The notes under the pieces: model-generated
Seen by the model: only the letters and a program-made list of their open reading frames with translations
Databases searched by the model: none
What the model was told of the DNA's origin: nothing
Shown here: piece by piece, positions 12,911-30,533 of the stretch
How the letters are laid out: every line of letters starts with the position of its first letter
How positions within the stretch are numbered: the stretch's first letter is position 1
Origin: a virus
Reading direction: 5' to 3' (one strand)
Virus record (IMG/VR): IMGVR_UViG_3300013114_000149
Coordinates: 1-31,927 of that record
Length of the DNA: 31,927 bases
Program-made: the position numbers and the translations under genes

Positions 12911-15562
12911 ATGTATATTGATGCTTATCTAGATAAAGAACAGGAACGCATCCACGTAGCGGAGCGAATTGACGGCAAACGTCAATACAAACAGTACCCC
13001 GTAGAGTATGTTTTTTATTTTGACGATATAAAAGGAAAGCATAAAACTATACACGATAGACCTGTTAGCAGGTTTTATTCTAAAAACAAAAAAGAGTTCA
13101 ATAGAGAACTCAAAATTAACAGCAGGAATCAGATCTATGAAAGCGACATTAATCCGATCTTTAGGTGTCTTGCTAATAATTATCTTGGCGCCGATTCTCC
13201 TATTCTTAATATTTGCTATGTAGACATTGAAGCAGATTTTGATCCGGAAAAAGGATTTAGTGAGCCTAACGACCCCACGGCACCAATAACTGCTATTACT
13301 GTATATCTCAGTCAACTACAGCAGTTGGTAACATTAGCATTGAAACCAAAAACAATGCACGAAGACATAGCACAAAGCGTTGCGAAACACTTTGACAATA
13401 CATTTGTTTTTAATAGCGAAGCACAATTATTACAAACATTCTTAGACCTATTAGATGACAGTGATATTATAACTGGCTGGAACAGTGAAGGATATGACTT
13501 ACCATATCTTGTTAATAGAGTTACTCGCGTATTAAGCAGAGATGATACAAGACGTTTTTGTTTATGGGATCAATTTCCAAAAAAATTCTCATATGAGAAA
13601 TATGGGGGAGAGCAAACTAGTTTTAATTTAACAGGTAGAGTGCATTTAGATTATTTAGAACTGTATCGCAAATATACATATCATGAAATGCATAGTTACA
13701 GTCTAGACACTGTAGCAGATTATGAGTTGCAAGACAAAAAAGTTCCATATGAGGGCACATTAGATCAATTATATAACACAGACTTTGAGAAGTTTATAGA
13801 GTATAACAGGCAGGATGTTATGCTTATTGTACGATTAGATGAGAAACTAAGATTTATTGATTTAGCAAATGAACTCGCACATCAAAACACTGTACTATTA
13901 CCCACAACAATGGGAGCAGTAGCAGTAACAGAGCAAGCAATTATTAATGAGGCACACGCACAAGGATTAGTAGTTCCTAACAAACCCGACAGGGATGACA
14001 GCAAAACAGTTACGGCCGCGGGTGCGTATGTTGCAACACCTAAAAAAGGATTACATCATTGGATTGGCTCAGTAGATATAAACAGTCTGTATCCAAGTGC
14101 TATACGAGCATTAAACATGGGTCCGGAAACTATCATAGGGCAATTACGTCCTACAATGACACAAAATCATATCAATAAAATCGTAGCATCAGGCAAATCA
14201 CAAGCAGATGGCTGGGAAGGATTATTTGGCTCGTTAGAGTATGAAGCAGTAATGAATAGAGAGTCTAGCACAGAGATTACTATTGACTGGGAGGATGGTA
14301 AAGAAGAAGTTAAAACAGCAATGGAAATACATGGTATGGTATTTGGTAAGCATGGCAATAAATTGTTATTAAGTGCTAACGGGACATTGTTTACGAATGA
14401 TAGAAAAGGAATCATTCCAGGACTTCTGGAAAAGTGGTATGCTGAACGTAAAGAGATGCAAGCAAAATTGCATAAGGCAAAAACACAAAAAGATATTGTG
14501 TTTTGGGATAAAAGACAACTTGTAAAGAAAATTAATCTAAATAGTTTATATGGTGCATTATTAAATCCATATTGTAGATTCTTTGACATACGTTTAGGAC
14601 AAAGCACTACGTTATGTGGTAGGACTATTACAAAACATATGGCAAGTTATATAAACAAAATTATAACAGGCGAGTATGAGCATGATGGCAATTCTATTAT
14701 ATACGGAGATACAGATAGTTGTTATTTCTCAACATATGATATACTCAAAGAGGATATTAAAAAAGGAAGCATTCCATGGGATAAAGAATCAGTTATTGAA
14801 CTATATGATAACGTAGCAGAGGAAGTTAATAAATCATTCCCAGCATTTATGGCACAGAGTTTTAACTGCACGATGGAATTGGGAGAGATTATTAAGTGTG
14901 GGCGTGAGATTGTCGCAAGTAGCGGACTGTTTATAACTAAAAAGCGTTATGCTACACTCATATATGATTTAGAGGGCAAACGTGTTGACCAGGATGGGCC
15001 AGGCAAAGTAAAAGCAATGGGTATGGACTTAAAGAGATCAGATACGCCAGTAATTATGCAAGACTTTCTAAATATATTATTATTAGATGTTTTAACGAAC
15101 GCACAAGAAGCGGAAGTTATAGAGAAAATTAAAGCATTTAAATTTGACTTTGCCGACAAGCCAGGATGGGAAAAAGGAACTCCAAAAAGGGTAAATAATT
15201 TAACAATGTATACTAAACGCGAGCAACGCGAAGGTAAAGCAAATATGCCAGGACATGTTAGAGCGGCAATGAATTGGAACAATTTGCGTGATATGAATAG
15301 CGACAAGTATAGTATGCAAATAATGGATGGTGCTAAAACTATTGTATGTAAATTGAAATCAAATCCAATGGGTATTAAAAGTGTAGCATATCCAATTGAC
15401 GAGGCAAGATTGCCAGAATGGTTTAAGGGACTTCCATTTGATCATATCGCTATGGAAGAAACAATCATCGATAAGAAAATAGGAAATTTATTGAATGTTA
15501 TGAAGTGGGATCTGAAACAAGGAACTTCACGTAGTACATTTGATGATTTATTTGAATTATGA
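12911..15562 (+). CDS. 43: T4-type family-B DNA polymerase (gp43), 883 aa
   Basis: Replicative DNA polymerase with 3'-5' exonuclease. Exo I is YVDIEAD (D105, E107), Exo II is GWNSEGYD (189-196) and Exo III is YNRQD (298-302). Polymerase motif A is DINSLYPS (389-396), motif B is KKINLNSLYGALLNP (539-553) and motif C is YGDTDS (598-603). The extreme C-terminus, STFDDLFEL, has the aromatic/hydrophobic pattern expected of a clamp-binding peptide. Length is close to T4 gp43 (898 aa) and all catalytic aspartates are present. The following methyltransferase ATG overlaps its stop (ATGA), and the clamp gene lies one gene downstream. Confidence 0.97.
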   Translation: MYIDAYLDKEQERIHVAERIDGKRQYKQYPVEYVFYFDDIKGKHKTIHDRPVSRFYSKNKKEFNRELKINSRNQIYESDINPIFRCLANNYLGADSPILNICYVDIEADFDPEKGFSEPNDPTAPITAITVYLSQLQQLVTLALKPKTMHEDIAQSVAKHFDNTFVFNSEAQLLQTFLDLLDDSDIITGWNSEGYDLPYLVNRVTRVLSRDDTRRFCLWDQFPKKFSYEKYGGEQTSFNLTGRVHLDYLELYRKYTYHEMHSYSLDTVADYELQDKKVPYEGTLDQLYNTDFEKFIEYNRQDVMLIVRLDEKLRFIDLANELAHQNTVLLPTTMGAVAVTEQAIINEAHAQGLVVPNKPDRDDSKTVTAAGAYVATPKKGLHHWIGSVDINSLYPSAIRALNMGPETIIGQLRPTMTQNHINKIVASGKSQADGWEGLFGSLEYEAVMNRESSTEITIDWEDGKEEVKTAMEIHGMVFGKHGNKLLLSANGTLFTNDRKGIIPGLLEKWYAERKEMQAKLHKAKTQKDIVFWDKRQLVKKINLNSLYGALLNPYCRFFDIRLGQSTTLCGRTITKHMASYINKIITGEYEHDGNSIIYGDTDSCYFSTYDILKEDIKKGSIPWDKESVIELYDNVAEEVNKSFPAFMAQSFNCTMELGEIIKCGREIVASSGLFITKKRYATLIYDLEGKRVDQDGPGKVKAMGMDLKRSDTPVIMQDFLNILLLDVLTNAQEAEVIEKIKAFKFDFADKPGWEKGTPKRVNNLTMYTKREQREGKANMPGHVRAAMNWNNLRDMNSDKYSMQIMDGAKTIVCKLKSNPMGIKSVAYPIDEARLPEWFKGLPFDHIAMEETIIDKKIGNLLNVMKWDLKQGTSRSTFDDLFEL

Positions 15563-16557: not shown

Positions 16558-17289
16558 ATGAAAGATATTTTAGCAGATGTAATTAGTCACACACATGCCT
16601 TAGGTTTTTTAGAAATTATTAAGGTAACTGGCACCACAACAGACACATTAATAGAGTCTATGGCTGAAGATAGGAGTGTCGTGTTACAAGCAGAAACACA
16701 CGACCCAGTGTCAGCATTTGTGGGCACATTTGGTATGCCAAACCTTAACAAACTAGACACACTATTAAAGATTCCCGAGTATAAGGAAGATGCGAAGTTA
16801 GAACTTAATCAGCAGGAACGTAATGGTGAGGTAGTTCCAACAGGCATCCACTTTGAGAATAAAGCAGGTGATTTCCAAAATGATTACAGGTTTATGAATG
16901 CTGAAATTATAGAAAACAAACTTAAAAGTGTCAAGTTTAAGGGTGTAGAATGGGATATTGAATTTGAACCAGGCACCCCATCTATTATGCGTTTTGGCTA
17001 TCAAGCACAAGTTAACTCAGAAGAAGATGTATTTACAGTTAAAACTGATAAAAAGAACTTAATATTTGAATTTGGAGATCACAGCACACACGCAGGACAA
17101 TTTGTATTTGAAACAAGTGTTAGTGGTGCATTAAAAACAGGTTGGACTTGGCCAGTACAGCAAGTGTTGAAGGTTTTACATTTGACTGGCGATAAAGTAA
17201 TATCATTTAGTGATAAAGGTGCATTACAAATATCAGTAGACAGCGGATTGGCAAAATACAATTATATATTACCAGCACAAAGTAAATGA
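16558..17289 (+). CDS. 45: Sliding clamp, T4 gp45-like, 243 aa
   Basis: Trimeric processivity clamp; in T4 it also acts as the mobile enhancer of late transcription. The product resembles gp45 (228 aa in T4) in length and pattern: an acidic N-terminal domain, VSAFVGTFGMPNLNKLDTLLKI, a central YRFMNAEIIENKLK segment, and a second domain ending LQISVDSGLAKYNYILPA. A good AGGAG Shine-Dalgarno and a consensus promoter precede it. The stop overlaps the ATG of the TGT/DpdA-like gene (ATGA), which ties clamp and base-exchange enzyme to the same mRNA. Confidence 0.9.
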   Translation: MKDILADVISHTHALGFLEIIKVTGTTTDTLIESMAEDRSVVLQAETHDPVSAFVGTFGMPNLNKLDTLLKIPEYKEDAKLELNQQERNGEVVPTGIHFENKAGDFQNDYRFMNAEIIENKLKSVKFKGVEWDIEFEPGTPSIMRFGYQAQVNSEEDVFTVKTDKKNLIFEFGDHSTHAGQFVFETSVSGALKTGWTWPVQQVLKVLHLTGDKVISFSDKGALQISVDSGLAKYNYILPAQSK

Positions 17290-18764
17290 GAGAGAACCTT
17301 GTAGAAACACAAGGAAATTATGCAATCTACTTACCAGCCATTAGTAGTTTTTATGCCGCGTATGTAGGCAAACAACGATACGAAGATTTTGTACCTCAAG
17401 ACAGAATTCCATCACGTTTTACTAGTGGTATAGAAGGCTTAAATTTCCTTAACACTAAAGAAGGATATTTTAAGTATCCTTGGGCATTGTATTCTGCTGG
17501 ACATGCTGATATGAATTTGGATAAGTTTGTTGCTAAAGAGGACATGGTCCGCAATAGAGCACCAGACACTGTATTAGTGGGTGACAGTGGTGGATTCCAA
17601 ATATCTAAAGGCGTGTGGATGGGAGAGTGGTTAGAGCCATATGGTGTTGATAAGAAAACTGACGCAATACGAGAAAAAGTATTACGATTTTTAGAAGGCA
17701 CATTTGATTACTCTATGGTGCTTGACTTACCTACATTTAGTGTTACTCATGCACACTTACATGGATTAGATACTTGGCAAAAGTGTTTACAAGGCACGTT
17801 AAACAATAATGATTACTTCGCACAAGCACGTGAGCCAGGTGCGACAAAGTTTCTAAATGTATTACAAGGTAACAATTGGAAACAATGTGAGGAATGGTAT
17901 GAGGCAGTTAAACCATACAGCACAGGCGAGAAGGCAAACTTTGAGGGATGGGCATTAAGTTCTATTAATAAAAAGGATGTAGAAATTGCTATACGCAGAC
18001 TATTAAAGATGCGTGAGGATGGCTTTTTAGGTGAGACAGAATGGATGCATTATTTGGGTACAGGTGAACTGCTTTGGAGTATTGTACTAACAGCATTCCA
18101 ACGTGAAATACACGACAAAATAAACCCAAATATTATACTGTCTTATGATTGTGCGTCACCGTTTTTAGCAACAGCATATGGCACAATGTATACTAGCATA
18201 CACACTGACCATTTACGCAAGGGTTGGACTTATAAAATGCTTAAGGCAATAGATGACAAAAAGTATGCTAAAGATACAAGGATATTTGATTATAATATTG
18301 AGTTTCCTGATCGAGATTGGGAACCCAGTCCTATTAGTGAGCGTATAGAAATGCGAGACGTTTGCCCATATGGACCAGGTGATTTAAACAAAATAGGCAA
18401 GGAAGGAAGAACGAGTTGGGATAGTTTTAGTTATGCATTACAAATGGGACACAATGTTTACTTGCATATTTTAGCAACACAACGAGCAAATGAATGTTAT
18501 GATCAAGGAATAATGCCTAAACAATTAGTAGCACCAAATGGCGCTCATATAGCAGAGGTAATTCATGAGATATTTTCTAAGAAAGATCATGCTAATGCCA
18601 TTGCTGAAGTAGAGAAATACAGTAGATGGTTTACACGCATCCAAGGGGTAAATACTTCTGAAGCCTATGCAGATGAATTAGGCATAGAACCAATGGGAAA
18701 GGATGAAGTGATGGCCAAAGAAACATATAGTGCAGAGGAATCATTTCATAACTTGTTTGAGTAA
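17286..18764 (+). CDS. dpdA: TGT/DpdA-type guanine transglycosylase, 492 aa
   Basis: Resembles tRNA-guanine transglycosylase and its phage DNA-acting relatives (DpdA), which swap guanine for a 7-deazaguanine base. LVGDSGGFQIS carries the first catalytic Asp (D100). FLNVLQG (189-195) and FEGWALSSI (219-227) match the substrate-binding strands. SYDCASP carries the second Asp (D288), 188 residues after the first, close to the 178 of Zymomonas TGT. The C-terminal CxCxxC...H zinc site of tRNA enzymes is not evident. At 492 aa it is longer than bacterial TGT (~375). It overlaps the clamp stop codon and FolE, QueD and QueE are in this window, so DNA is the likely target; specificity is inferred. Confidence 0.8.
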   Translation: MRENLVETQGNYAIYLPAISSFYAAYVGKQRYEDFVPQDRIPSRFTSGIEGLNFLNTKEGYFKYPWALYSAGHADMNLDKFVAKEDMVRNRAPDTVLVGDSGGFQISKGVWMGEWLEPYGVDKKTDAIREKVLRFLEGTFDYSMVLDLPTFSVTHAHLHGLDTWQKCLQGTLNNNDYFAQAREPGATKFLNVLQGNNWKQCEEWYEAVKPYSTGEKANFEGWALSSINKKDVEIAIRRLLKMREDGFLGETEWMHYLGTGELLWSIVLTAFQREIHDKINPNIILSYDCASPFLATAYGTMYTSIHTDHLRKGWTYKMLKAIDDKKYAKDTRIFDYNIEFPDRDWEPSPISERIEMRDVCPYGPGDLNKIGKEGRTSWDSFSYALQMGHNVYLHILATQRANECYDQGIMPKQLVAPNGAHIAEVIHEIFSKKDHANAIAEVEKYSRWFTRIQGVNTSEAYADELGIEPMGKDEVMAKETYSAEESFHNLFE

Positions 18765-18919
18765 TGACACTTTTAGAGTATATACAGCAACGTATAGAAC
18801 TAAACAAACAATACAATATTATTCGATTTCCTATAGAGAAACGAATCAATGATATAGAGGAGCAAAAACATGGCAGTAAAGAAAAAGAAGAAGGTAGTCA
18901 AGAAAGAAGCAGAAGATAA
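18764..18919 (+). CDS. Small ORF, 51 aa, between dpdA and the ClpP-like gene
   Basis: ATG overlaps the dpdA stop (TAATG), an arrangement used repeatedly in this window. The product (begins MTLLEYIQQRIELNK) is a predicted charged helix and overlaps the first 50 nt of the ClpP-like gene in another frame. The N-terminus resembles that of the 15559 methyltransferase gene. Without it, 105 nt would be non-coding. It is too short to assign. Confidence 0.45.
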   Translation: MTLLEYIQQRIELNKQYNIIRFPIEKRINDIEEQKHGSKEKEEGSQERSRR

Positions 18920-19508
18920 AGACACAGAAGCAGGACCAAAACCACAACGACCACGTGGGCCGCAACCTAGCGGTGATCCACTATATGATAATAATATTCA
19001 TATGTTCATGACTGACTTTAATGAAGAGTCCTGTGGTATGGCAATTAGATTTATACTTGAGAAAAATGTATTGCCCTCAAAATTTAAACCAAAACATCTC
19101 ACACTAATGATTAATAGTCCTGGTGGTGAGGTTGCCCACGCATTTGCGTTAATTGATTGTATGAAAGGATCAGCGATCCCTGTCCACACAGTAGGACTAG
19201 GTATGATTGCCTCTTGTGGCGTACTAACATTTATGGCTGGACAAAAAGGTCATAGAACAATTACCCCAAATACTAGCATATTAAGTCATCAATATAGTTG
19301 GGGCAGTAGAGGTAAAGAACACGAATTGTTCGCAGTTGTAAGAGAATTTGAGATGAGTACAGAACGTATGTTAATGCATTATAAGAAATGTACTGGATTA
19401 TCTGAAAAGAAGATTCGTGAAGTATTACTACCACCGCAAGACGTGTGGCTCAATGCTGAAGAAGCAGTAAAATATGGAATAGCAGATAAAATTAAATCAG
19501 TATACTGA
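18870..19508 (+). CDS. ClpP-like serine protease, 212 aa
   Basis: Residues 35-212 follow the ClpP fold: LMINSPGGEV (79-88), GMIASCGVLTFMAG with nucleophile Ser115, ILSHQYSWG with His140, and PPQDVWLNAEEAVKYGIADKI with Asp191. The spacings S-H 25 and H-D 51 agree with E. coli ClpP (25 and 49). The oxyanion-strand residue after Ser is Cys instead of Met. The first ~35 residues are a Lys-rich then Pro/Arg-rich tail (MAVKKKKKVVKKEAE, PKPQRPRGPQP), not seen in cellular ClpP. A strong GAGGAG Shine-Dalgarno precedes the start. Partner ATPase, if any, is unknown; a role in host takeover or head maturation is possible. Confidence 0.85.
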   Translation: MAVKKKKKVVKKEAEDKDTEAGPKPQRPRGPQPSGDPLYDNNIHMFMTDFNEESCGMAIRFILEKNVLPSKFKPKHLTLMINSPGGEVAHAFALIDCMKGSAIPVHTVGLGMIASCGVLTFMAGQKGHRTITPNTSILSHQYSWGSRGKEHELFAVVREFEMSTERMLMHYKKCTGLSEKKIREVLLPPQDVWLNAEEAVKYGIADKIKSVY

Positions 19509-19774
19509 TGGAAATTGGAAAATTCAAAATTAATAGTGTTACTGTCCGTGATAGATGGATAGGCGAAACAACGGGTAAATCTATAGAAGGCGGCGCACTA
19601 AACGCCAACTATAGAACCGTTGAAGCCGTTGCTATGATATGTAATCATTTAGGCACATTAGGTCTAATATATGGGGAAGATTTCACATGGGACGGCGTTG
19701 ATGGCCAAGGAAATATAGTAATAAATTATAAAAAAGGACACTCGTCTTTGCTTGACAATATCAAGTGGTCGTAG
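19508..19774 (+). CDS. Conserved-looking hypothetical protein, 88 aa
   Basis: Starts at an ATG overlapping the ClpP-like stop (TGATG). The protein begins MEIGKFKINSVTVRDRWIG and ends in a short beta/turn segment (DGQGNIVINYKKG). There are no membrane segments or cysteine motifs beyond a single Cys. The ferredoxin promoter lies in its last 23 nt. I do not recognise the family. Confidence 0.6.
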   Translation: MEIGKFKINSVTVRDRWIGETTGKSIEGGALNANYRTVEAVAMICNHLGTLGLIYGEDFTWDGVDGQGNIVINYKKGHSSLLDNIKWS

Positions 19775-19780
19775 TATACT
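19752..19780 (+). promoter_or_regulatory. Sigma70-type promoter for ferredoxin, predicted leaderless
   Basis: TTGACA (19752-19757), a 17-nt spacer and TATACT (19775-19780). Exactly 6 nt follow to the ATG at 19787, so transcription should begin on the start codon. No Shine-Dalgarno is present. The promoter lies over the end of the preceding gene. Confidence 0.8.
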
Positions 19781-19786
19781 TGTGTT

Positions 19787-20125
19787 ATGACTTATATAGT
19801 TAACGAAAATTGCGTTAAATGTAAATTAACGGACTGTGTAGAAGTATGTCCTGTAGACTGTTTCTACGAAGGCGAAAATATGCTGGTTATACACCCAGAC
19901 GAATGCATTGACTGTGGCATTTGTGAGCCTGAATGTCCTATTGAAGCCATTGTGCCAGACAATGAATATACACAAACTGGCAATATTGATTGGGCAGAAT
20001 TCAACGACAAATATTCTAAAGTATGGCCCAACATAACGGAGCAGAAGGACCCAATGCCCGACCACAAATCGTGGGAAGGGGTAGATGGGAAAGAAGAACA
20101 CGTATCAACTGAACCTGCGAGTTAA
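19787..20125 (+). CDS. fdxA: 7Fe-8S ferredoxin (FdxA type), 112 aa
   Basis: Small low-potential electron carrier. Cysteines 9, 12, 17, 21, 25, 40, 43, 46 and 50 match the Azotobacter FdI/FdxA arrangement shifted by one: C9, C17 and C50 for the [3Fe-4S] cluster; C40, C43, C46 and C21 for the [4Fe-4S]. Hallmark segments are [31 protein letters not shown] and [20 protein letters not shown]. Length matches proteobacterial FdxA (~107-112). The gene has its own strong leaderless-type promoter. It may reduce the radical-SAM clusters of QueE and the 6966 protein; that partnership is inferred. Confidence 0.95.
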
Positions 20126-20127
20126 TT

Positions 20128-20574
20128 ATGAACGAAGTATTCAACATAGACGATCATAGACGTCAACTGAGAACAGAAAAAGTTCAACAAATGCCCAAAA
20201 TGATTTGGGTTAAATTTCAAAAAGAGGGTATACACAAATACCCGGCCGCATTAGAAGATCCCGCATTAGCAACTGGTGATGAGTATGATGTATCCTTTCT
20301 CGGATATCCACATCGCCACACATTCCACTTTAAGGTTACTATACAAGTATTCCACGACGACAGAGATATTGAATTTATTCAATTTAAACGTTGGTTGGAA
20401 GGTTTGTATGGCACAACATTGGAATTAGACTATAAGTCTTGTGAGATGATTGCTGATGATCTTTATATGGAAATTAATGACAGATATCCAGATAGAGAAG
20501 TATGGATTGAAGTAGGCGAGGATGGTGAAAACGGCTGCCATTGCGTCTATCCTATAACTTTAGCCGCAGAATAA
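20128..20574 (+). CDS. Putative T-fold (tunnelling-fold) protein, QueD-related pattern, 148 aa
   Basis: Not a clear member of a named family, but the order of features resembles T-fold enzymes such as 6-pyruvoyl/carboxy-tetrahydropterin synthase. YPHRHTFHFKVTIQV places a His pair before a long strand. DRDIEFIQFKRWLEGL resembles the Asp-x-x-x-Leu helix start. DYKSCEMIADDLYMEI resembles the substrate-binding Glu region (S/TxExxA), and VWIEVGEDGENGC a final strand. Three-histidine zinc ligation is not obvious, so it may be non-catalytic or bind another ligand. It starts 2 nt after the ferredoxin stop, so it belongs to the same transcript. Alternative: an unrelated phage protein. Confidence 0.5.
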   Translation: MNEVFNIDDHRRQLRTEKVQQMPKMIWVKFQKEGIHKYPAALEDPALATGDEYDVSFLGYPHRHTFHFKVTIQVFHDDRDIEFIQFKRWLEGLYGTTLELDYKSCEMIADDLYMEINDRYPDREVWIEVGEDGENGCHCVYPITLAAE

Positions 20575-20580
20575 CAACAA

Positions 20581-20801
20581 TGAAAGAAGCAGTCAAAAAG
20601 GTCTTTGACGACCTTGATGAGTACCGAGATTTCTGTAGAATTTACGGGCGTGTTTTTAACGAAGCACATATGTATAAGGAAAGAACTCCTTATGATGATT
20701 TCCTTAAATGGAAGGACACAGGCAAAGCACGTTACTGGCCAGGATATAAGAAATATGACCACAACAGAGACCGCAAACGCCAAAATTACCGAAATTCTTG
20801 A
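20581..20801 (+). CDS. Small hypothetical protein, 73 aa
   Basis: ATG at 20581 is taken rather than an in-frame ATG at 20541 that would overlap the preceding gene. The product begins MKEAVKKVFDDLDEYRDFCR and is rich in Tyr, Lys, Arg and Asp, ending in a basic tail (HNRDRKRQNYRNS). No good Shine-Dalgarno is visible. The 3' end overlaps the cupin gene by 47 nt in another frame. Family not recognised. Confidence 0.6.
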
Positions 20802-21186
20802 AGAAGTTCTAAAAGAATATCGCGTATGGGGACATTATAAAGTTTTAGGTGACTTTAACGGCGTTAAAGTGAAAGAACTTGTAGTTAGTCCTAGCATGTG
20901 TTTAAGTTTTCAAAAGCATGAACACAGAGAAGAATTTTGGTGCGTTAATAGTGGCGTAGCAAGGGTAATACTCAGTGAAGATTACCCACGGGGTAGTAAA
21001 AAAGTAGAGCAAGATTTAATAGAAGATAATAGCACTACTGTTATACTACATGAAACTGAAACATTAGTCATACCAGCAGGTACTTGGCATCAATTGATTA
21101 ATCCCTCAAGACAGGAATTAAGCATTATAGAGGTACAATATGGTAGCCAGTGTGACGAAGAAGATATTACAAGATTATACCAATGA
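20755..21186 (+). CDS. manA: Mannose-6-phosphate isomerase-type cupin, 143 aa
   Basis: A single cupin domain like the isomerase half of ManC/ManA type II. WGHYKVLGDFNGVKVKEL is the start of the barrel, QKHEHREEFWCVNSG the metal site (H55, H57, with E60 or E61), IPAGTWHQLIN the second conserved motif with the C-terminal metal His, and IEVQYGSQCDEEDITR the typical end. It would interconvert mannose-6-P and fructose-6-P or act as a related sugar isomerase. ATG at 20755 (AGGAT upstream) matches the domain start; the open frame extends upstream without family resemblance. The stop overlaps the glycosyltransferase ATG (ATGA). Confidence 0.8.
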   Translation: MTTTETANAKITEILEEVLKEYRVWGHYKVLGDFNGVKVKELVVSPSMCLSFQKHEHREEFWCVNSGVARVILSEDYPRGSKKVEQDLIEDNSTTVILHETETLVIPAGTWHQLINPSRQELSIIEVQYGSQCDEEDITRLYQ

Positions 21187-22265
21187 ATACAATTTATATT
21201 ATACCCATTGAGCCTATAGATCAACGCTATACGAAACAATGGTACGATAATATTCCATCACTTCTTGAAGAGAAAATAGCAGAACACAGTTTAGAGTACT
21301 GTGTTGAAACTATCGATGGGGTTACTGTTGAAGATAAAACCACCAGCGGTGCGTTCCTTGACTTCGGAAAAACAAATGAGTACAAGGCTAGCCAAACCGC
21401 GCGAGTAAGCGAATTGTTTAGCAAGGGTCTCATCCTCCCCGGCGACAAATTCCTTATTACTGACGCTTGGAACTTCATTGTAACACCCATCAAATACATG
21501 AGCGAACTGCTTGACATACCTGTAGAGATACACGGTATTTGGCATGCAGGCGCATACGATCCAACTGACATATTGGGTCTAAAGATGTCTAAACCATGGC
21601 CACATTTACAGGAAAAATCATGGTTTATGGCATGTGACTATAATTATTATGCAACTAATTTCCATAAGGATATATTTTTACACAACTTGGAAATACCTGA
21701 CATATATCACAGCAAAGCAATACGCAGTGGACAACCACATAATCCTATTGTAGAGCAATTGCAACAATATTATAATAGTCCTAAACGAGATACTATTATG
21801 TGGCCGCATCGTTACAATGAAGATAAACAACCTGAAATTATAGAAGATCTTGATTTAACTCCATATAATGTTGTAATTACCCAAAACTTAAATTTAAGTA
21901 AAGAAGACTATTATGCAACAATGGGACAAGCAAAAGCGGTGTTTAGTTGTGCTCTACATGAAAATTTGGGTATTAGTATGATGGAGGGATGTTTAGCAGG
22001 CGCTATTCCTATTGTTCCAGATAGAGCAAGTTATAGTGAAATGTATAAGGATGTATTCAAATATCCTAGTGTATGGACTGAAAGTTATGGGAATTACCAA
22101 GAGCATAAAGAAGATTTACAAGACTTTATTACTACACTATGTAGCAACTATGACATTGTAAAAAAGGAATATTTAGACGAACAAGTAGAAGTATTAACAC
22201 ATAATTTCTTAAGTGCCGATATTATGTTTGACAATATTTTATCGCCGTGGCTTCTAGAAATATAA
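21183..22265 (+). CDS. GT-B glycosyltransferase (family 4-like), 360 aa
   Basis: The C-terminal half has the GT-B donor-site pattern. IMWPHRYNEDKQPEII starts the second Rossmann domain; MGQAKAVFSCALHENLGISMMEGCLAGAIPIVPDR is the typical family 1/4 motif with Glu (HENLGISMMEG) that contacts the nucleotide sugar. The N-terminal half (KGLILPGDKFLITDAWN, EIHGIWHAGAYDP) fits the acceptor domain. It overlaps the mannose cupin gene, which suggests a mannose or GDP-sugar donor, but this is inferred. A target such as modified DNA or a surface glycan cannot be told. Its final codons overlap the late-like box at 22261. Confidence 0.75.
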   Translation: MNTIYIIPIEPIDQRYTKQWYDNIPSLLEEKIAEHSLEYCVETIDGVTVEDKTTSGAFLDFGKTNEYKASQTARVSELFSKGLILPGDKFLITDAWNFIVTPIKYMSELLDIPVEIHGIWHAGAYDPTDILGLKMSKPWPHLQEKSWFMACDYNYYATNFHKDIFLHNLEIPDIYHSKAIRSGQPHNPIVEQLQQYYNSPKRDTIMWPHRYNEDKQPEIIEDLDLTPYNVVITQNLNLSKEDYYATMGQAKAVFSCALHENLGISMMEGCLAGAIPIVPDRASYSEMYKDVFKYPSVWTESYGNYQEHKEDLQDFITTLCSNYDIVKKEYLDEQVEVLTHNFLSADIMFDNILSPWLLEI

Positions 22266-22268
22266 ATA
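22261..22268 (+). promoter_or_regulatory. T4-late-like promoter TATAAATA (exact consensus)
   Basis: TATAAATA is the full T4 late consensus. The predicted start near 22275 puts a hairpin (22276-22293) at the mRNA 5' end, as at 3744. It would drive folE and what follows. Late expression of a modification-pathway gene would be unexpected, so the box needs direct mapping. Confidence 0.45.
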
Positions 22269-22275
22269 TTAGCAG

Positions 22276-22293
22276 AGTTACACAAAGGTAACT
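22276..22293 (+). other. 5'-terminal hairpin in the folE leader
   Basis: AGTTAC (22276-22281) pairs with GTAACT (22288-22293) around a 6-nt loop ACAAAG. It lies directly at the start predicted from the late-like box. No U-tract follows, so it is unlikely to be a terminator. Confidence 0.45.
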
Positions 22294-22325
22294 GATGTAA
22301 AACAACAACCGAGTAAGGAAGGAAA

Positions 22326-23006
22326 ATGAGTTATAACAAAACAAAGACTGACTCTCATCTGGGTCAGCAAGTTCACGAACATTTATCAAAGTTAGGCCTT
22401 GAAACGCCTGTCACTTCAAGTCTGTATACACTTTCAAGAACAGAAAAAATAGAAGCAATCGAACGTAGAATGGAAGAAGTTCTTGAGATTGTGGGAATGG
22501 ATTTAACAGACGATAGTTTAATGGATACGCCAAAACGTGTTGCTAAAATGTATGTTAATGAAATATTTTGGGGTTTAAGTCCAGATGCATTTCCCAAATG
22601 TACAGCAGTAGCAAACAAAATAGACTACGATGAGATGGTTGTAGAAAGGAACATACAAGTATCTTCTTTTTGCGAGCATCATTTAGTTGCTATTGATGGC
22701 AAGGCACACGTAGGATATATTCCGAAACACAAAGTATTGGGTTTAAGCAAATTAAACAGGATTGTAGAATACTTTAGTAAACGACCACAAATACAAGAAC
22801 GTTTAACAGAACAAATTTACCACGCACTCAGTTTTATTTTAGATACTGAAGAGGTTGCTGTGGTAATTGACGCCGCTCACTTCTGTGTTAAGCATAGAGG
22901 TGTAGAGGACACAGGTTCATATACTATCACAAGTAAATTAGGTGGACGATACAAAACAGACTCGGCACATAGAGCAGAGTTTATGCAGTTAGTACACAAA
23001 TCATGA
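22326..23006 (+). CDS. folE: GTP cyclohydrolase I, 226 aa
   Basis: Converts GTP to 7,8-dihydroneopterin triphosphate, the entry step of folate and 7-deazaguanine synthesis. Zinc ligands C116, H119 and C187 sit in SSFCEHHLVAI and AAHFCVKHRGVEDTGS with the same spacing as E. coli FolE (C110 to C181). GLSKLNRIVEYFSKRPQIQERLTEQI is the family's central helix signature. Length is normal (E. coli 222). A strong AAGGAAGG Shine-Dalgarno precedes it. With QueD and QueE downstream, it most likely feeds the deazaguanine route rather than folate. Confidence 0.97.
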   Translation: MSYNKTKTDSHLGQQVHEHLSKLGLETPVTSSLYTLSRTEKIEAIERRMEEVLEIVGMDLTDDSLMDTPKRVAKMYVNEIFWGLSPDAFPKCTAVANKIDYDEMVVERNIQVSSFCEHHLVAIDGKAHVGYIPKHKVLGLSKLNRIVEYFSKRPQIQERLTEQIYHALSFILDTEEVAVVIDAAHFCVKHRGVEDTGSYTITSKLGGRYKTDSAHRAEFMQLVHKS

Positions 23007-23182
23007 CAAAAAAGAAGATTAAAATGATTGATCCTCCTTCTGGTTGGAGATATGGATTTCCTAAACCGTTACCAGAAGGTGTAGAGGATGTAAAAAAATG
23101 GCTTGTTGAGAATGGTTATCCTCAACAGGAAATAGATGCCCTTGGTAAACATTTTTATTATCGCCATTGGGAAGAGGGGTAA
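23003..23182 (+). CDS. Small hypothetical protein, 59 aa
   Basis: ATG overlaps the folE stop (ATGA), so it is probably translationally coupled. The protein has a Lys-rich start, then DPPSGWRYGFPKPLPEG and VKKWLVENGYPQQEIDALG, ending in an aromatic tail (FYYRHWEEG). It looks like a real conserved small protein in composition and codon use. Function unknown. It stops 8 nt before copy 2 of the structured repeat. Confidence 0.65.
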   Translation: MTKKKIKMIDPPSGWRYGFPKPLPEGVEDVKKWLVENGYPQQEIDALGKHFYYRHWEEG

Positions 23183-23190
23183 GAGATATA

Positions 23191-23296
23191 TTTTCCGGTT
23201 TTCAGTTACCCGGTCTGTCGTATTGCAAGCACTATTAGCCACGATTAAGTTGCGTATAGGGGTAGTGCCCAAGGACGAGATGCAGATAAAAACTGT
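23191..23296 (+). ncRNA. Conserved structured RNA element, copy 2
   Basis: Second copy of the 178-282 element, fully intergenic upstream of the 23309 ORF. The same pairings hold: CCGG 23195-23198 with CCGG 23210-23213; TCGT 23218-23221 with ACGA 23275-23278; GCACTAT 23229-23235 with GTAGTGC 23262-23268; loop CAGTT 23203-23207 with AACTG 23291-23295. Relative to copy 1, a U-G pair in the 7-bp stem becomes C-G and a U-A becomes U-G, both preserving pairing. The RNA lies between folE and the phosphoribosyltransferase-queD-queE genes, so it could be a cis-regulator of the pathway or a separate RNA. Class unknown. Confidence 0.65.
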
Positions 23297-23308
23297 AAAC
23301 ATTGTAAC

Positions 23309-23566
23309 ATGACTAGTATTACCAAACTTAAAAAGCAGTGGATGAACGATCCAAAGGTTGTCGAAGCTTTTGAAAAGATGCACCAAGAATTTACGAAGGA
23401 CAGAACACATATGACAAGCAACAAACCAATTGAAACTGATGCAGAATACAAAGCTGCCCTAAAAAGGGTTGAGGAACTGCTGACACTGATGGAACTTATT
23501 GAGGCATATGAGGCCAAACACTTTCCTCTATTAGAGGATGATAATCAACAACAGGAGTTGAAGTAA
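23309..23566 (+). CDS. HigA-antitoxin-like small protein, 85 aa, lacking a DNA-binding domain
   Basis: Residues ~35-77 (TDAEYKAALKRVEELL, then MELIEAYEAKHFPL) resemble the N-terminal region of HigA-type antitoxins, which has a D/E-Y-x-x-A-L helix and a VEAYEAKHYPI-like segment. The loop usually between the two helices is shortened and no helix-turn-helix domain follows. The first ~30 residues form a separate charged helix. An in-frame ATG at 23411 with GAAGGA upstream is an alternative start that would keep only the antitoxin-like part. No Shine-Dalgarno precedes 23309, which lies 13 nt after the structured repeat. It may be a domesticated antitoxin remnant. Confidence 0.5.
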   Translation: MTSITKLKKQWMNDPKVVEAFEKMHQEFTKDRTHMTSNKPIETDAEYKAALKRVEELLTLMELIEAYEAKHFPLLEDDNQQQELK

Positions 23567-24105
23567 TGACAAAAATGATAGATGTTAATACACAAGATGT
23601 CAAATCGTATGTATTAGACATTTGCCATCAAATGAACGCAGACAATTGGGTGCCTGATTATATAGTAGGCATACCACGAGGCGGTATGTTGCCTGCTGTA
23701 ATGTTAAGTCACTATCTCAATCGTCCTATGGTTATACAAGATGTTAGGTTACGTGATAATGTACAACAAGAATCTAATTCTGAAATACCATTGGATGCAT
23801 TAGAAGGCAAACAGATTCTTATCATAGATGATATTAATGACACTGGCGCAACTTTCAAATGGATGGTAAATGATTGGGAAAATACTATAGAGCCACATTT
23901 ATTTCATCATTATGGGAAGGGATATCATATGCCTGATGAAAACAAAGCATTATGGAAACGTAATATCAGATTTGCTGTATTGTTTAATAACGCGGGCAGT
24001 GAGTTTAAAGACATAGCATTCAATGCTCGTGAAATTAACAAAACAGAAGATCCATCGTGGGTCGTATTTCCATGGGAATGTTGGTGGTATAATAGGAATT
24101 GGTAA
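23566..24105 (+). CDS. Phosphoribosyltransferase, purine type, 179 aa
   Basis: Type-I phosphoribosyltransferase fold. VGIPRGGMLPAVMLSHYLNRP is the early strand and helix, ILIIDDINDTGAT (84-96) the PRPP-binding loop, and WVVFPWECWW a C-terminal motif like that of xanthine/guanine phosphoribosyltransferases. It probably salvages a purine base to its nucleotide, or acts on a related base. Gene order (next to folE, queD and queE) raises the possibility of a deazapurine substrate, which is inference. An AGGAG Shine-Dalgarno lies before an ATG overlapping the previous stop (TAATG). Confidence 0.8.
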   Translation: MTKMIDVNTQDVKSYVLDICHQMNADNWVPDYIVGIPRGGMLPAVMLSHYLNRPMVIQDVRLRDNVQQESNSEIPLDALEGKQILIIDDINDTGATFKWMVNDWENTIEPHLFHHYGKGYHMPDENKALWKRNIRFAVLFNNAGSEFKDIAFNAREINKTEDPSWVVFPWECWWYNRNW

Positions 24106-24467
24106 TGAAGCAAAGAACACAGTATATATTGGGCATGGTAGTAATGATACTATTATGCTTTGATTTGGCAGGTTGTGATAGGGGTGAGACAGAAAAAGGC
24201 AAAGCATGTTGGGGAGTACTTGGAATGGATACACTCACTGGTGAGCAATGTGAGCCAATTGATGAGGTTGTACCACCATCAGATGGAGATGGGCGATACT
24301 GTTGTGCCGCATTAATACCATCTTGCCATGCTTGTAAAGAGGGATTAACAGTTAGACAGTGGTTAGATAAAACGTGCGGGACAGATTCTGACTCTGCAGA
24401 ATATTCGCATTGGGACACAGAGAAAAATGAACCAGTTTGGTTATGTAGAATGGTAATTATAGATTAG
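24105..24467 (+). CDS. Cys-rich predicted lipoprotein, 120 aa
   Basis: ATG overlaps the preceding stop (TAATG) and is preferred over an upstream TTG at 24099. The signal peptide has MKQR, then a hydrophobic stretch MVVMILLCFD, then lipobox LAGC with lipidation Cys24. The mature part has eight further cysteines (35, 49, 66, 67, 74, 77, 91, 114), which suggests disulfides in the periplasm. Phage-encoded lipoproteins are known to block receptors or DNA entry by competing phages (for example T5 Llp), so superinfection exclusion is a candidate role. It interrupts the deazaguanine genes and shows no enzymatic motif. Confidence 0.7.
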   Translation: MKQRTQYILGMVVMILLCFDLAGCDRGETEKGKACWGVLGMDTLTGEQCEPIDEVVPPSDGDGRYCCAALIPSCHACKEGLTVRQWLDKTCGTDSDSAEYSHWDTEKNEPVWLCRMVIID

Positions 24468-24476
24468 GAGAGAGCA

Positions 24477-24953
24477 ATGAGTGACGTACCAGAATTTACA
24501 TCAACGAAAAGTTTTTGGAACTTTCCGTGTGCTCATAGACAGCACAAACACGATGGCAATTGCCATTTAATACACGGTTATAGTCGTAGTTTTCACTTTG
24601 TATTTGGCGCACAGACAATGACAAAGGAAGGATTCCTTGTTGATTATGGTGACTTGGATGGAGTAAAACAATGGTTAGAAGAAAATTATGATCATACATT
24701 TGTAGTTGATCATGATGATCCGTGGATGGAAACATTTCAAGCAATGCACGATGCGGGTGTATGTAAATTAATTGTACAAGAAGAAGGACCAGGTATGGAA
24801 GGAACTGCTATGCGTATTTGTATGTGGGCAGATGAATGGTTGCGGGAACGTACAAGAGGACGAGCATGGGTTATTAGTGTAGAGTCTAGAGAAAATGATA
24901 AGAATAGTTCCATTTATACTAACCCTGATGCTGGCTTTAAAGGTTGGCTGTAA
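24477..24953 (+). CDS. queD: 6-carboxytetrahydropterin synthase-like protein (QueD), 158 aa
   Basis: T-fold enzyme that turns dihydroneopterin triphosphate into 6-carboxytetrahydropterin. Visible are FPCAHRQH (zinc His20), NCHLIHGY with catalytic Cys29 and zinc His33, VDYGDLDGVKQWLEE, YDHTF with Asp72-His73 of the relay, and ISVESREND with Glu136. The second His of the usual HGH zinc motif is Tyr35, so one of three zinc ligands appears replaced. That may be a clade feature or alter activity. Longer than E. coli QueD (121). It has an AGGAG Shine-Dalgarno. The downstream amidinotransferase start overlaps its end. Confidence 0.85.
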   Translation: MSDVPEFTSTKSFWNFPCAHRQHKHDGNCHLIHGYSRSFHFVFGAQTMTKEGFLVDYGDLDGVKQWLEENYDHTFVVDHDDPWMETFQAMHDAGVCKLIVQEEGPGMEGTAMRICMWADEWLRERTRGRAWVISVESRENDKNSSIYTNPDAGFKGWL

Positions 24954-26098
24954 TAAATTGCAACACAGGATTTCAGCCATTAGTTGAATGTTGGCTTGGT
25001 GATTGTTATCGTCCTGACTTTTTTGATTATATAGAAAATAATAGTGTTAGAAATGTTCTGCGACAAATAACAGAAGAAACTATAGAAGATTTAGAGAACA
25101 TACGAGAAATACTAGAGAAGTACAATGTAAAAGTCAATCGACCTAAAGTATTTGACTTTGAAAATATGTATAATGTATACAAAGTAGGGCGAGAATGTTT
25201 AGATGATAACTTGGAAGTGCGTAGAGATTTAGTATTACAAAAATGGCCTAAATTTAAAGATATAAATGGTGTTACAGAATATCTAGACAATTACAATATA
25301 CATGAATTTCCAGGTGACTTAACTCGTCCTCCACTCATGGTAAGAGATGAACAAATTGTTATTAAAGATTCAATATACAGGCTTACAAGAAAAGATGTAC
25401 GCAAGGATCACGGAGATTTCCCAGCAACGATAGCGGCACTAGAACCATTATTTAATAAACTACACAAATACGATGGAAATATTATAGATGATCTTCCATT
25501 TGGAAATAGTAACGATGCTCCTAGTATTGTTAGACTTGGAGACACTATAATATTAGATGGGTTACCAATAGATATCTATAACTATTTTAAAAAGCAATTA
25601 AAAGATTATACTATAATAACTGCTTTCAATGATGGACATAGTGATGGTATATATAATCCAATTAAACCTGGCGTTTGGATTAGTAACGGAGAAGCATTAA
25701 ATTTTAAAAAATACTTTCCTAGTTGGGACGTATATTATTTGCCTGATGCACAGTGGTCTAATATGTCACCATTTTTAGAAGTTAGAGACAAGGTAAGAGG
25801 TAAATGGTGGATTCCTGGTGAGGAACATAATGATGATCTTATTAGTTTTGTGGATAACTGGTTTAGTGATTGGGTAGGTTTTTGTGAGGAAACAGTATGG
25901 GACGTAAACGTATTAGTAATAAATCCTGAAACAGTATTATGCTTAACAGAAAATAAAGACTTATTTAAATGGTTTAGATCACACAATATAGAACCTATAG
26001 TAGCACCGTTTAGACATAGATTCTTTTGGGATGGTGGACTACATTGCCTAACATTGGACATACACAGAGAAGGCGGAATAGAAAGTTATGCAAGATGA
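24944..26098 (+). CDS. AGAT-type amidinotransferase, 384 aa
   Basis: Member of the glycine amidinotransferase/guanidine-modifying superfamily. The catalytic triad aligns: Asp191 in NDAPSIVRLGD (compare FDAADFIRAGRD of AGAT), His232 in GHSDGIYNPIKPG (compare HIDATFNIIGPG) and Cys368 in GGLHCLTLDIHREGG (compare GGGFHCWTCDVRRRG). The N-terminus GFQPLVECWLGDCY is also typical. It would move an amidino group from arginine to an amine. It starts at TTG (24944), overlapping the queD end by 10 nt; no ATG is available upstream of the conserved part, so the exact start is uncertain. It lies between queD and queE, suggesting a link to base modification, but an unrelated substrate is possible. Confidence 0.85.
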   Translation: MAVINCNTGFQPLVECWLGDCYRPDFFDYIENNSVRNVLRQITEETIEDLENIREILEKYNVKVNRPKVFDFENMYNVYKVGRECLDDNLEVRRDLVLQKWPKFKDINGVTEYLDNYNIHEFPGDLTRPPLMVRDEQIVIKDSIYRLTRKDVRKDHGDFPATIAALEPLFNKLHKYDGNIIDDLPFGNSNDAPSIVRLGDTIILDGLPIDIYNYFKKQLKDYTIITAFNDGHSDGIYNPIKPGVWISNGEALNFKKYFPSWDVYYLPDAQWSNMSPFLEVRDKVRGKWWIPGEEHNDDLISFVDNWFSDWVGFCEETVWDVNVLVINPETVLCLTENKDLFKWFRSHNIEPIVAPFRHRFFWDGGLHCLTLDIHREGGIESYAR

Positions 26099-26348
26099 AT
26101 TAGAAAAAATTAAAGAACTTGCGGAAAATAGTCTAAAGAACTTTAAAGAGCCACATTATTATCGTGCGCCAAAAGAAGATGTAACTATTGACAATTTGAA
26201 GAATATTGTTATAATAGTAAATGAGCATGAAAAGAATGAAAAAGAACGTGAGAAAAAACATATAGAGGCAATGCGACATTGGTTCGGACCACACTATAAA
26301 CGTGATATGAAAGAATGGATGGAGCAACAAAAGAAAGATGAAAGTTAG
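26088..26348 (+). CDS. Small charged helical protein, 86 aa
   Basis: ATG overlaps the amidinotransferase end by 11 nt. The product begins MQDELEKIKELAENSLKNF and is mostly helix with a Glu/Lys-rich second half (NEHEKNEKEREKKHIE) that could form a coiled coil, ending in WMEQQKKDES. No family is recognised. It overlaps the start of queE by 11 nt, and an internal host-type promoter lies at 26188-26215. Confidence 0.6.
   Translation: MQDELEKIKELAENSLKNFKEPHYYRAPKEDVTIDNLKNIVIIVNEHEKNEKEREKKHIEAMRHWFGPHYKRDMKEWMEQQKKDES
26188..26215 (+). promoter_or_regulatory. Internal sigma70-type promoter upstream of queE
   Basis: TTGACA (26188-26193), a 16-nt spacer and TATAAT (26210-26215), both perfect boxes, lie inside the 86-aa gene. 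The predicted start near 26222 gives a ~116-nt leader to queE. It could give extra expression of queE. Chance occurrence in AT-rich DNA is possible, but both hexamers are exact. Confidence 0.5.
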
Positions 26349-27177
26349 ATATACTGAAATATTCTACAGCCTACAAGGCGAAGGTAGATGGGTAGGAACA
26401 CCAAGTGTATTCCTACGTTTATTTGGTTGTAACTTCAAATGCCAAGGCTTTGGAATGCCAGAGGTTAGTGCTGGACAACGGCAGGTAAGTGAAGAGCGGT
26501 TGTGGGTTGATCCAGATGATTATACCGCAATGGATGGATTACCATTAGTTAAAACAGGTTGTGATAGTTATGCTAGTTGGGATCCGCGTTTTAAACGATT
26601 TGCTACAACAACTGACATAGACGGCGTAGTAACAGATTTATTAGATATAACACCGCGCAATCAATGGGAAGAAATACATTTAGTTGTAACAGGCGGTGAA
26701 CCTATGTTATGGCAACGTATATATGAGCCATTATTAAAGCATCCAAGAATGAGTAGTTTAAAGCACATGACATTTGAGACAAATACAACACAAGAATTAC
26801 GATGGAATGACTTTTTTGCTGGTACTGACAGGCCATGGATAACTTGGTCTTGTAGTCCTAAACTATCAGCAAGTGGCGAAATATGGTCGGATGCTATTAA
26901 ACCAGACGTAGCAAAAGAATATTCTGCCGTTCAAAAATCAGATATGTATTTTAAATTCGTGATAGATAATGAAGAGGGTATTAATGAAGTGCTGGAGGCT
27001 GTAGAGGCATACAGAAGTGCTGGAGTAAATTGTCCAGTATATGTAATGCCAGTAGGCGGATGCTACGAAGATTATTCCTTTAATTCACGCCACGTTGCAG
27101 ATCTAGCAATGAAATACGGACTTAAATACAGTCCAAGACTACATTCCGATTTATTTGGAAACGCCTGGGGAACATAA
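26338..27177 (+). CDS. queE: 7-carboxy-7-deazaguanine synthase (QueE), 279 aa, with split radical-SAM motif
   Basis: Radical-SAM enzyme that makes the 7-deazaguanine ring from 6-carboxytetrahydropterin. The start TEIFYSLQGEGRWVGTPSVF is the QueE signature. The cluster Cys are C31 and C35 (GCNFKCQGF), but the third Cys of CxxxCxxC is replaced by Phe. C75 in GCDSYASW aligns with the usual WCDTxYxW, so ~38 residues appear inserted between the second and third cluster cysteines. TGGEPMLW (118-125), TFETNTTQ and CSPKLSASG complete the core. Longer than typical QueE (~220-245). It overlaps the preceding gene and is followed with TAATG coupling. Confidence 0.88.
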   Translation: MKVRYTEIFYSLQGEGRWVGTPSVFLRLFGCNFKCQGFGMPEVSAGQRQVSEERLWVDPDDYTAMDGLPLVKTGCDSYASWDPRFKRFATTTDIDGVVTDLLDITPRNQWEEIHLVVTGGEPMLWQRIYEPLLKHPRMSSLKHMTFETNTTQELRWNDFFAGTDRPWITWSCSPKLSASGEIWSDAIKPDVAKEYSAVQKSDMYFKFVIDNEEGINEVLEAVEAYRSAGVNCPVYVMPVGGCYEDYSFNSRHVADLAMKYGLKYSPRLHSDLFGNAWGT

Positions 27178-29011: not shown

Positions 29012-29028
29012 CCATAGAGTGCGCTATG
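29012..29028 (+). promoter_or_regulatory. Hairpin covering the rnh start codon
   Basis: CATAG pairs with CTATG (5 bp) around a 6-nt loop AGTGCG; the ATG of rnh at 29026 lies in the 3' arm. No Shine-Dalgarno is present between the upstream stem-loop and the start. This could restrain translation, but a 5-bp stem may be weak. Confidence 0.35.
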
Positions 29029-29997: not shown

Positions 29998-30533
29998 TGT
30001 CAGGAATAGTTGTATTACTATCTGGTTCAGGAACAAACTTGCAGGCAATTATAGACGCAAACTTGCCTGTTAAGTATGTTTTGTCTGACAAGCCTAATGC
30101 CTATGGATTGACTAGAGCAGAAGAGGCAGGAATACCTACGTATGTATTGTCTAGCCTTAAACGATTAGAACATAGAACAACAAATATATGTGAAGAATAC
30201 AAAATAGACTTAATAGTACTCGCCGGCTTTATGCGACTCTTGAGCCCTGGTTTCGTACAACGCTGGGAATCGCACATTATCAACATTCATCCATCTTTAC
30301 TTCCAGAGTTCAAGGGGGCGGGTGCTATTAAGCAAGCATTTGACGCAGGTGTTAATGAGACCGGCGTTACAGTACATTATGTAGATGAGGGAATGGATAC
30401 TGGCTCTGTTATAGAGCAAATAAGAGTTCCCATACTCAACCATGATAGTTTAGAGGATTTAGAACAACGAATACACAAAGTAGAACATGAGTTATATCCA
30501 AGGACAATTAAATGGCTTTTAACGAATTACTAG
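29997..30533 (+). CDS. purN: Phosphoribosylglycinamide formyltransferase, short form, 178 aa
   Basis: Third step of purine synthesis: 10-formyl-THF-dependent formylation of GAR. LLSGSGTNLQAII is the phosphate-binding loop (8-20). HIINIHPSLLPEFKGAGA carries Asn96 and His98, and YVDEGMDTGSVI carries Asp134, with the E. coli catalytic spacing (N-H 2, H-D 36). It is ~34 residues shorter than E. coli PurN (212), mostly before the active site. GTG start with GGAGG upstream, overlapping the rnh stop by 1 nt. Would boost purine supply during infection. Confidence 0.93.
   Translation: MSGIVVLLSGSGTNLQAIIDANLPVKYVLSDKPNAYGLTRAEEAGIPTYVLSSLKRLEHRTTNICEEYKIDLIVLAGFMRLLSPGFVQRWESHIINIHPSLLPEFKGAGAIKQAFDAGVNETGVTVHYVDEGMDTGSVIEQIRVPILNHDSLEDLEQRIHKVEHELYPRTIKWLLTNY

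Follow-up and report, generated by a model that had tools for sequence, protein, structure and literature searches.

A DpdA-like transglycosylase with a putative clamp-binding tail in a conserved 7-deazaguanine gene module of giant phages

The virus record IMGVR_UViG_3300013114_000149 of IMG/VR, a stretch of 31,927 nucleotides (nt; 31.9 kilobases, kb) that was analysed at its full length and is here called the window, carries on its plus strand the genes for a B-family DNA polymerase, a diverged sliding clamp, a predicted DpdA-like DNA-guanine transglycosylase (dpdA) and several enzymes of 7-deazaguanine synthesis, with a replication exonuclease at the module end (Table 1; genes are named by their first position where they have no common name). 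An earlier description made from the letters and open reading frames (ORFs) alone, hereafter the sequence-only reading, had proposed a 7-deazaguanine DNA-modification pathway with its transglycosylase coupled to the clamp. The features on which it relied, namely FolE, the QueD-like and QueE-like genes, the 17286 ORF and its overlap with the clamp gene, were all recovered where it had placed them; its inventory held for the genes that it named and passed over three others, encoding the 20128 protein, the 21183 glycosyltransferase and the 23566 purine phosphoribosyltransferase. Its interpretation as a whole is partly supported. In our view the window probably represents a giant-phage module for DNA modification that is linked to replication.

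Table 1. Features of the window, with positions, strands and the basis of each assignment
Feature	Position	Strand	Basis
B-family DNA polymerase	12911..15562	+	Matches to DNA polymerase II in NCBIfam, none reaching cut-off
Polymerase clamp-type tail TFDDLF	15536-15553	+	C-terminal motif
gp45-type sliding clamp, diverged	16558..17289	+	hhalign to T4-type clamps
ATGA overlap, clamp stop / dpdA start, 4 nt	17286..17289	+	
DpdA-like DNA-guanine transglycosylase (predicted)	17286..18764	+	Fold; invariant D100/D147/Q194/D288
DpdA clamp-binding-type peptide SFHNLF (putative), residues 486-491	18741..18758	+	Motif F..[LF]F
148-residue conserved partner, tentative QueD/PTPS-type enzyme	20128..20574	+	Invariant residues, weak QueD match
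GT4-fold (GT-B) glycosyltransferase	21183..22265	+	Model and alignment
FolE GTP cyclohydrolase I	22326..23006	+	NCBIfam NF006824, 304 bits (equivalog cut-off 202)
Purine phosphoribosyltransferase	23566..24105	+	Pribosyltran 9e-13; 1vdm 4e-12, 4z1o 7e-11
QueD-like 6-carboxytetrahydropterin synthase	24477..24953	+	PF01242 2e-18; phrog_2389 5e-33
QueE-like radical SAM 7-carboxy-7-deazaguanine synthase	26338..27177	+	phrog_2076 1e-49
5'-3' exonuclease / RNase H-like replication gene, module end	29026..29997	+	PF02739 2e-21
GMP reductase	5870-6934	-	Above an NCBIfam cut-off
Amino-acid dehydrogenase, tryptophan dehydrogenase ScyB-like	11793-12881		NCBIfam, below cut-off
SAM methyltransferase-like gene, between polymerase and clamp	15559-16503		
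FdxA ferredoxin, proteobacterial type	19787-20125		Above NCBIfam equivalog cut-off
PurN	29997-30533		Above an NCBIfam cut-off

At a threshold of 0.001 neither Pfam nor PHROGs nor NCBIfam matched the 17286 product. Its AlphaFold model, built from 34 sequences with a mean predicted local distance difference test (pLDDT) score of 88, retrieved two matches below 0.001 from the PDB with Foldseek, both of them tRNA-guanine transglycosylases (TGTs; best 1e-6), and all 50 matches listed by a second structural aligner were likewise TGTs, the best of which, 2ash_A, superposed over 303 residues (Z 20.1, root-mean-square deviation 4.5). The Salmonella DpdA structure 7UI4 (PMC12137116) is not among the matches listed by Foldseek (50) or by the structural aligner. 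Four residues, D100, D147, Q194 and D288, are invariant in all 34 aligned rows (33 of which share 44-96% identity with the window protein), and these include both aspartates, D100 and D288, that the sequence-only reading had named as catalytic. We take the four positions to be those of the TGT motif DSGGFQ, the base-binding aspartate, the QG motif and the nucleophilic aspartate, with D100 and D288 presumably the counterparts of the catalytic D102 and D280 of TGTs. In profile searches against TGT and DpdA subfamilies, which the earlier description had suggested, PF01702 did not match and no DpdA profile matched at 0.001; comparison of the 17286 profile with that of the KVP40-type, DpdA2-like family (phrog_10773) revealed a moderate likeness (hhalign probability 68.5; two controls at or below 0.3). 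We provisionally equate the latter family with DpdA2 because the KVP40 gene lies in a FolE/QueC cluster. The KVP40-type profile matched no chain in the PDB, and nothing usable came of searching PDB sequences with the alignments of DpdA, the clamp and 20128. Fold and active-site residues support the assignment of the 17286 product to the TGT/DpdA type as a separate DpdA-like subfamily; its substrate, we infer, is DNA.

The same fold is that of tRNA-acting enzymes, and the protein might accordingly be read as the tRNA-guanine transglycosylase of a phage queuosine pathway, for which FolE, QueD and QueE also serve; homologues in phages X1 and Moby are annotated as queuine tRNA-ribosyltransferases. 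Enzymes that act on tRNA, however, carry a CxCxxC...H zinc site, and CxCxxC occurs in none of the 34 aligned rows. Together with the lack of a PF01702 match, this led us to reject that identity, which is further disfavoured by a window in which neither a tRNA gene nor a QueC match was found, and by the location of the gene in a replication module and the clamp-type tail of its product. We consider a tRNA-acting enzyme very improbable.

The pathway had been described from the sequence as spread out. Comparison of dpdA loci shows instead that clamp, dpdA and 7-deazaguanine genes form a conserved module. A DpdA profile scan of viral contigs confirmed at least 590 relatives, from which the best 80 were used. 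In the 66 dpdA loci whose downstream sequence extends for 9 kb or more, same-strand neighbours included the clamp (61), 20128 (64), 21183 (58), folE (60), the phosphoribosyltransferase (51), queE (58) and queD (20), and the exonuclease was seen in 40, counts that include redundant contigs and were obtained by tblastn with the window proteins, which misses diverged partners, queD above all. This arrangement also bears on the idea that the genes provide auxiliary metabolism, such as pterin supply and purine salvage, the DpdA-like protein being a degenerate or differently acting barrel. FolE does also feed folate synthesis, and the window contains GMP reductase and PurN, yet queE stays near dpdA in 58 of the 66 loci and all four TGT active-site residues are preserved throughout the alignment; we hold this to be the least probable of the explanations considered.

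The 16558 product has no clamp match in Pfam. Its identity emerged from profile comparison, in which 23 sequences of its family aligned with 11 T4-type clamps at an hhalign probability of 81.5 over 172 columns in local mode and 84.4 over 212 columns in global mode, with six unrelated control families at or below 0.4 and 20 column shuffles at or below 1.2; a comparison with a shallower clamp profile had failed (probability 0.8). The T4-type clamp profile found no match in records G001, G004 and G011 or in phages PA5oct, Vibrio 2.275.O and Phosso, all of which have a 16558-type clamp, and five of these six have a gp44-like clamp loader. Ten other phages in the same searches matched both the T4-type clamp and a gp44-like loader, three of them (X1, ACP17 and RHph_I1_18) matching the clamp profile by construction. 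In distinct loci, after removal of those with less than 1.5 kb upstream of dpdA, the clamp gene lies upstream of dpdA in 87 of 88. Phosso alone departs from this order; clamp, 20128, glycosyltransferase, FolE and QueE remain together in its module. The more distant phages PA5oct and Vibrio 2.275.O have a homologous clamp upstream of dpdA with one and two genes between, respectively, and in phage 9g, too, the annotated clamp gene adjoins dpdA (L185:2006-3960). The four-nucleotide ATGA overlap in the window is as the sequence-only reading described it; the single mRNA that it deduced for the two genes is not supported: they overlap (by 4 or 1 nt) in 16 of the 87 loci, lie within 20 nt in 32 and within 700 nt in 81, and reach a separation of 1397 nt.

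A second line of evidence comes from the protein termini. In the window the polymerase ends in STFDDLFEL and DpdA in EESFHNLFE, both tails of the [ST][FL]xx[LF]F type, and the pattern F..[LF]F recurs near the C-terminus (last 60 residues) in 76 of 80 distinct DNA polymerases and 75 of 88 distinct DpdAs (a count separate from that of the 88 loci, made on distinct strings of the last 60 residues, each locus contributing its best place and loci truncated at a contig end being excluded). In 12 of 14 other families it is absent, and it occurs in 4 of 64 phosphoribosyltransferases, 1 of 56 exonucleases and 18 of 1909 background ORFs, the latter being ATG-started frames of at least 100 residues, unverified as genes and still including at least one polymerase, that of Phosso. 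Tails of polymerase and DpdA are alike in six of the eleven named phages compared: SLESLFG and SLEELFG in X1, SLDDLFE and TLDELFE in ACP17, SLEDLFGW and SLDDLFG in Moby, TLDDFFS and SLDSFFD in BUCT-ZZ01, NNTDLFDW and NNNDLFGW in Vibrio 2.275.O, and HFDSLFGW and SFNSLFDV, with an acidic extension, in PA5oct. Such an extension follows the motif in many DpdAs, so that the motif starts about 29-48 residues from the end. In phage T4 the polymerase gp43 ends in ASLDFLFG. The C-termini of gp43, gp55 and gp33 are reported to bind the clamp gp45 and to be interchangeable, and the RB69 clamp was crystallised with the last 11 residues of its polymerase (PMC2988020). Because these T4 tails bind gp45 and the motif is common to polymerase and DpdA, we read the DpdA tail as a putative clamp-binding peptide. 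Tail and synteny are separate lines of evidence, since in X1, ACP17 and Moby the clamp lies about 10 kb or more from dpdA. The coupling of transglycosylase and clamp proposed from the gene overlap thus appears better founded than the overlap itself would allow. The glycosyltransferase-like protein whose gene overlaps dpdA in Synechococcus phage BUCT-ZZ01 (L180:2653-3996) also has a clamp-type tail, SLEDFFND.

Several observations weigh against a clamp-tethered DpdA. The DpdAs of KVP40 and D484 have no such tail, though both polymerases carry one; that of 9g ends in RLQDLFDE, unlike the annotated polymerase, from which such a tail is missing; and the pairs of pf16 and Phosso are weak. The strict motif is missing from 13 of the 88 DpdAs, which form one clade and are not independent events, the tail helix is modelled with low confidence, and by the time the tails were compared pairwise the motif had already been seen in the window, X1 and ACP17. 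Some 174 kb separate the clamp from the dpdA relative in Phosso. The lack of a DpdA profile match at 0.001 and the moderate likeness to the KVP40-type profile count against it as well, and DpdA activity is a prediction for every member of the subfamily. It is conceivable that DpdA modifies DNA untethered, that synteny reflects co-expression of early genes, and that the tail is coincidental or binds something else, as the unmatched tails of KVP40, D484 and 9g and the gaps of up to 1.4 kb between clamp and dpdA would allow. The near restriction of the motif to DpdA and polymerase, and the pairing of its variants (FxxLF, LxxLF, LxxFF and NNxDLFxW) in individual phages, run counter to this account, which we judge unlikely while giving it considerably more weight than the tRNA or auxiliary-metabolism readings.

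The genes for synthesis of 7-carboxy-7-deazaguanine (CDG) from guanosine triphosphate (GTP), identified by the sequence-only reading as FolE, QueD and QueE in the absence of QueC, were recovered, the latter two as QueD-like and QueE-like genes. With 40 bits the 24477 product stays short of the 89 bits that NCBIfam sets for QueD; its residues C29, D72, H73 and E139 are invariant in 12 rows, and it has an HGY motif, which we take to be the equivalent of HGH in Escherichia coli QueD. For the 26338 product all NCBIfam QueE matches were below cut-off and Pfam gave none, and its alignment found QueE structures in the PDB (4e-11). Its C31, C35 and C75 are invariant in 19 rows, with a long variable insert between the second and third cysteine, and the canonical CX3CX2C spacing of radical S-adenosylmethionine (SAM) enzymes is thus lacking; because the insert splits the cluster cysteines we call the protein QueE-like. 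By eye, the QueEs of X1 and Cellulophaga phage phiST have an insert at this place as well, and those of ACP17 and Phosso look canonical. No match to the QueC family PF06508 was found in the window or, on extending the search as the sequence-only reading had advised, in nine contigs from relatives that are longer than the window, the largest of 235 and 322 kb, and that may themselves be incomplete.

The 20128 family provides a possible counterpart to this absence. Over 29 records, chosen non-randomly from DpdA, 20128 and glycosyltransferase matches and including 12 of one clade, 20128 and QueC exclude each other: full-length QueC occurs in none of the 22 records with 20128, and the seven records without it all contain QueC, with E below 1e-48 in six and a weak match in Moby. 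Weak partial PF06508 matches occur among the 22, over the cut-off in G017 and W17 and below it in G015 and W01. One of the seven, PhiXhv-12, was included for its glycosyltransferase match and was not searched for DpdA. By this mutual exclusion 20128 is associated with a route for CDG that does not depend on QueC. Six residues of the family (H36, H62, H64, C105, E106 and E131) are invariant in 35 sequences. Its likeness to QueD is weak and short, with a local hhalign probability of 47 over 45 columns (controls at or below 0.5; 1.5 and 16 in earlier, shallower runs); we used the local probability alone, the global E-value being unreliable where a shuffle reached 1e-23. Pfam PTPS matched one of 26 members, at 0.023. 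That 20128 might be a CDG decarboxylase (DpdL) is our guess. The final base, we infer, is CDG, 7-deazaguanine or a relative. In Vibrio phage Bakedbeans (L198:7251-8402) a 20128 domain is fused behind about 260 residues in a protein of 383; this lead was dropped when the N-terminal part did not align with transglycosylase candidates of the phiST type.

Two further enzymes may extend the pathway. The 21183 model (pLDDT 91) aligns with the GT-B glycosyltransferase 6kih_A (Z 26.0) and with BshA (E 1e-10), and an EX7E motif (E260/E268), R210 and K215 are invariant in 32 sequences. Its Pfam Glycos_transf_1 score of 16.4 is below the cut-off of 26.4; at E of 1 or less, 18 of 32 members match Glycos_transf_1 and 15 match Rsbr_N. 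One PDB match below 0.001 with the family alignment, 8pjx_A over 40 residues, was taken as chance. The family occurs in 17 of the 22 records with 20128 (three by short, weak matches) and in one of the seven without, PhiXhv-12, where its neighbour is annotated as a malate deacetylase. In PA5oct, ACP17 and X1 a gene of this family overlaps or directly abuts dpdA; the glycosyltransferase-like protein of BUCT-ZZ01 is different from this family and falls just below Pfam cut-offs. Both a dpdA-like gene and a galactosyltransferase are mentioned for one mycobacteriophage (PMC10893344). The purine phosphoribosyltransferase gene sits between FolE and QueE, and in BUCT-ZZ01 an annotated xanthine-guanine phosphoribosyltransferase adjoins QueE, as would be expected if displaced guanine were salvaged.

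The explanation that we favour, and think probable, is that the 17286 product is a clamp-tethered DNA-guanine transglycosylase that inserts a QueC-independent 7-deazaguanine. FolE, QueD and QueE would convert GTP to CDG; because no QueC step follows, the base used would be either CDG itself or what the 20128 enzyme makes of it, perhaps 7-deazaguanine formed by decarboxylation, and DpdA would insert this base in place of guanine in DNA. Through its C-terminal peptide, which belongs to the same class as the polymerase tail, DpdA would be tethered to the gp45-type clamp, and by virtue of this tether the exchange would act on freshly replicated duplex behind the fork. The guanine set free may be salvaged by the phosphoribosyltransferase, and the GT4 enzyme may transfer a sugar to the base. 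Combination of all these parts into a replisome-coupled hypermodification line, in which clamp-tethered DpdA, guanine salvage and a dedicated GT4 enzyme yield glycosylated 7-deazaguanine in DNA, is a speculative extension that we hold to be unlikely.

Modification of phage DNA with 7-deazaguanines is already known, and the proposed clamp tethering is the surprising and testable part. The DpdA and DpdA2 systems described for 9g, CAjan and nt-1 (Hutinet 2019, PMC6884629) likewise have the TGT fold and are paired with FolE, QueD and QueE, and the KVP40-type relatives in X1, ACP17, Moby and BUCT-ZZ01 share a clamp-type tail with the window protein. The window subfamily differs in matching no PHROG at 0.001, and its module in having no QueC match, with 20128 and usually a GT4-type enzyme instead. 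QueC-less phage pathways reportedly make the deoxynucleosides of CDG or 7-deazaguanine (dCDG or dDG; Cui 2023, NAR), and one or other is said to occur in the Cellulophaga phiST group. Like the window these have FolE, QueD and QueE without a QueC match, and phiST carries a 20128 homologue; its candidate transglycosylase (CGPG_00065, phrog_20335, assigned by eye) has only 259 residues, however, and phiST has no match to the 21183 family. The window DpdA resembles the T4 clamp clients in its short hydrophobic and acidic C-terminal epitope (PMC2988020), from which many DpdAs depart by their acidic extension. T4 alpha- and beta-glucosyltransferases resemble 21183 as phage GT-B enzymes in a DNA-modification setting; 21183 differs from them in its EX7E motif and in sitting with 7-deazaguanine genes. 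Phage DNA glycosyltransferases are exemplified by these two T4 enzymes, and we know of no base exchange by gp43, gp55 or gp33. In open-licence papers, passages naming DpdA, clamp and phage gave no link between DpdA and the clamp, the word clamp is absent from the main texts of Hutinet 2019 (PMC6884629) and the 9g genome paper, and the one search on this subject turned up no glycosylated 7-deazaguanine in DNA.

The proposal bears on the timing and location of 7-deazaguanine placement in phage DNA. A clamp-binding tail that DpdA has in common with the polymerase would make replication-coupled base exchange directly testable and, if it operates as proposed, a phage genome could be chemically disguised while it is copied. 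Independently of this, the analysis brings to light a widespread DpdA-like subfamily unrecognised by the family libraries used, and connects giant-phage DNA modification with two unannotated families, 20128 and 21183; the hypermodification line, were it to exist, would be the work of a module that is conserved across a large class of these phages.

Other genes of the window accompany the module. Homologues of the methyltransferase-like gene occupy the same position in many relatives, and the dehydrogenase gene lies 5' of the polymerase in close relatives. GMP reductase and PurN are purine metabolism genes beside a GTP-consuming pathway. In close relatives fdxA lies within the module, and FdxA might supply electrons to QueE, a radical SAM enzyme.

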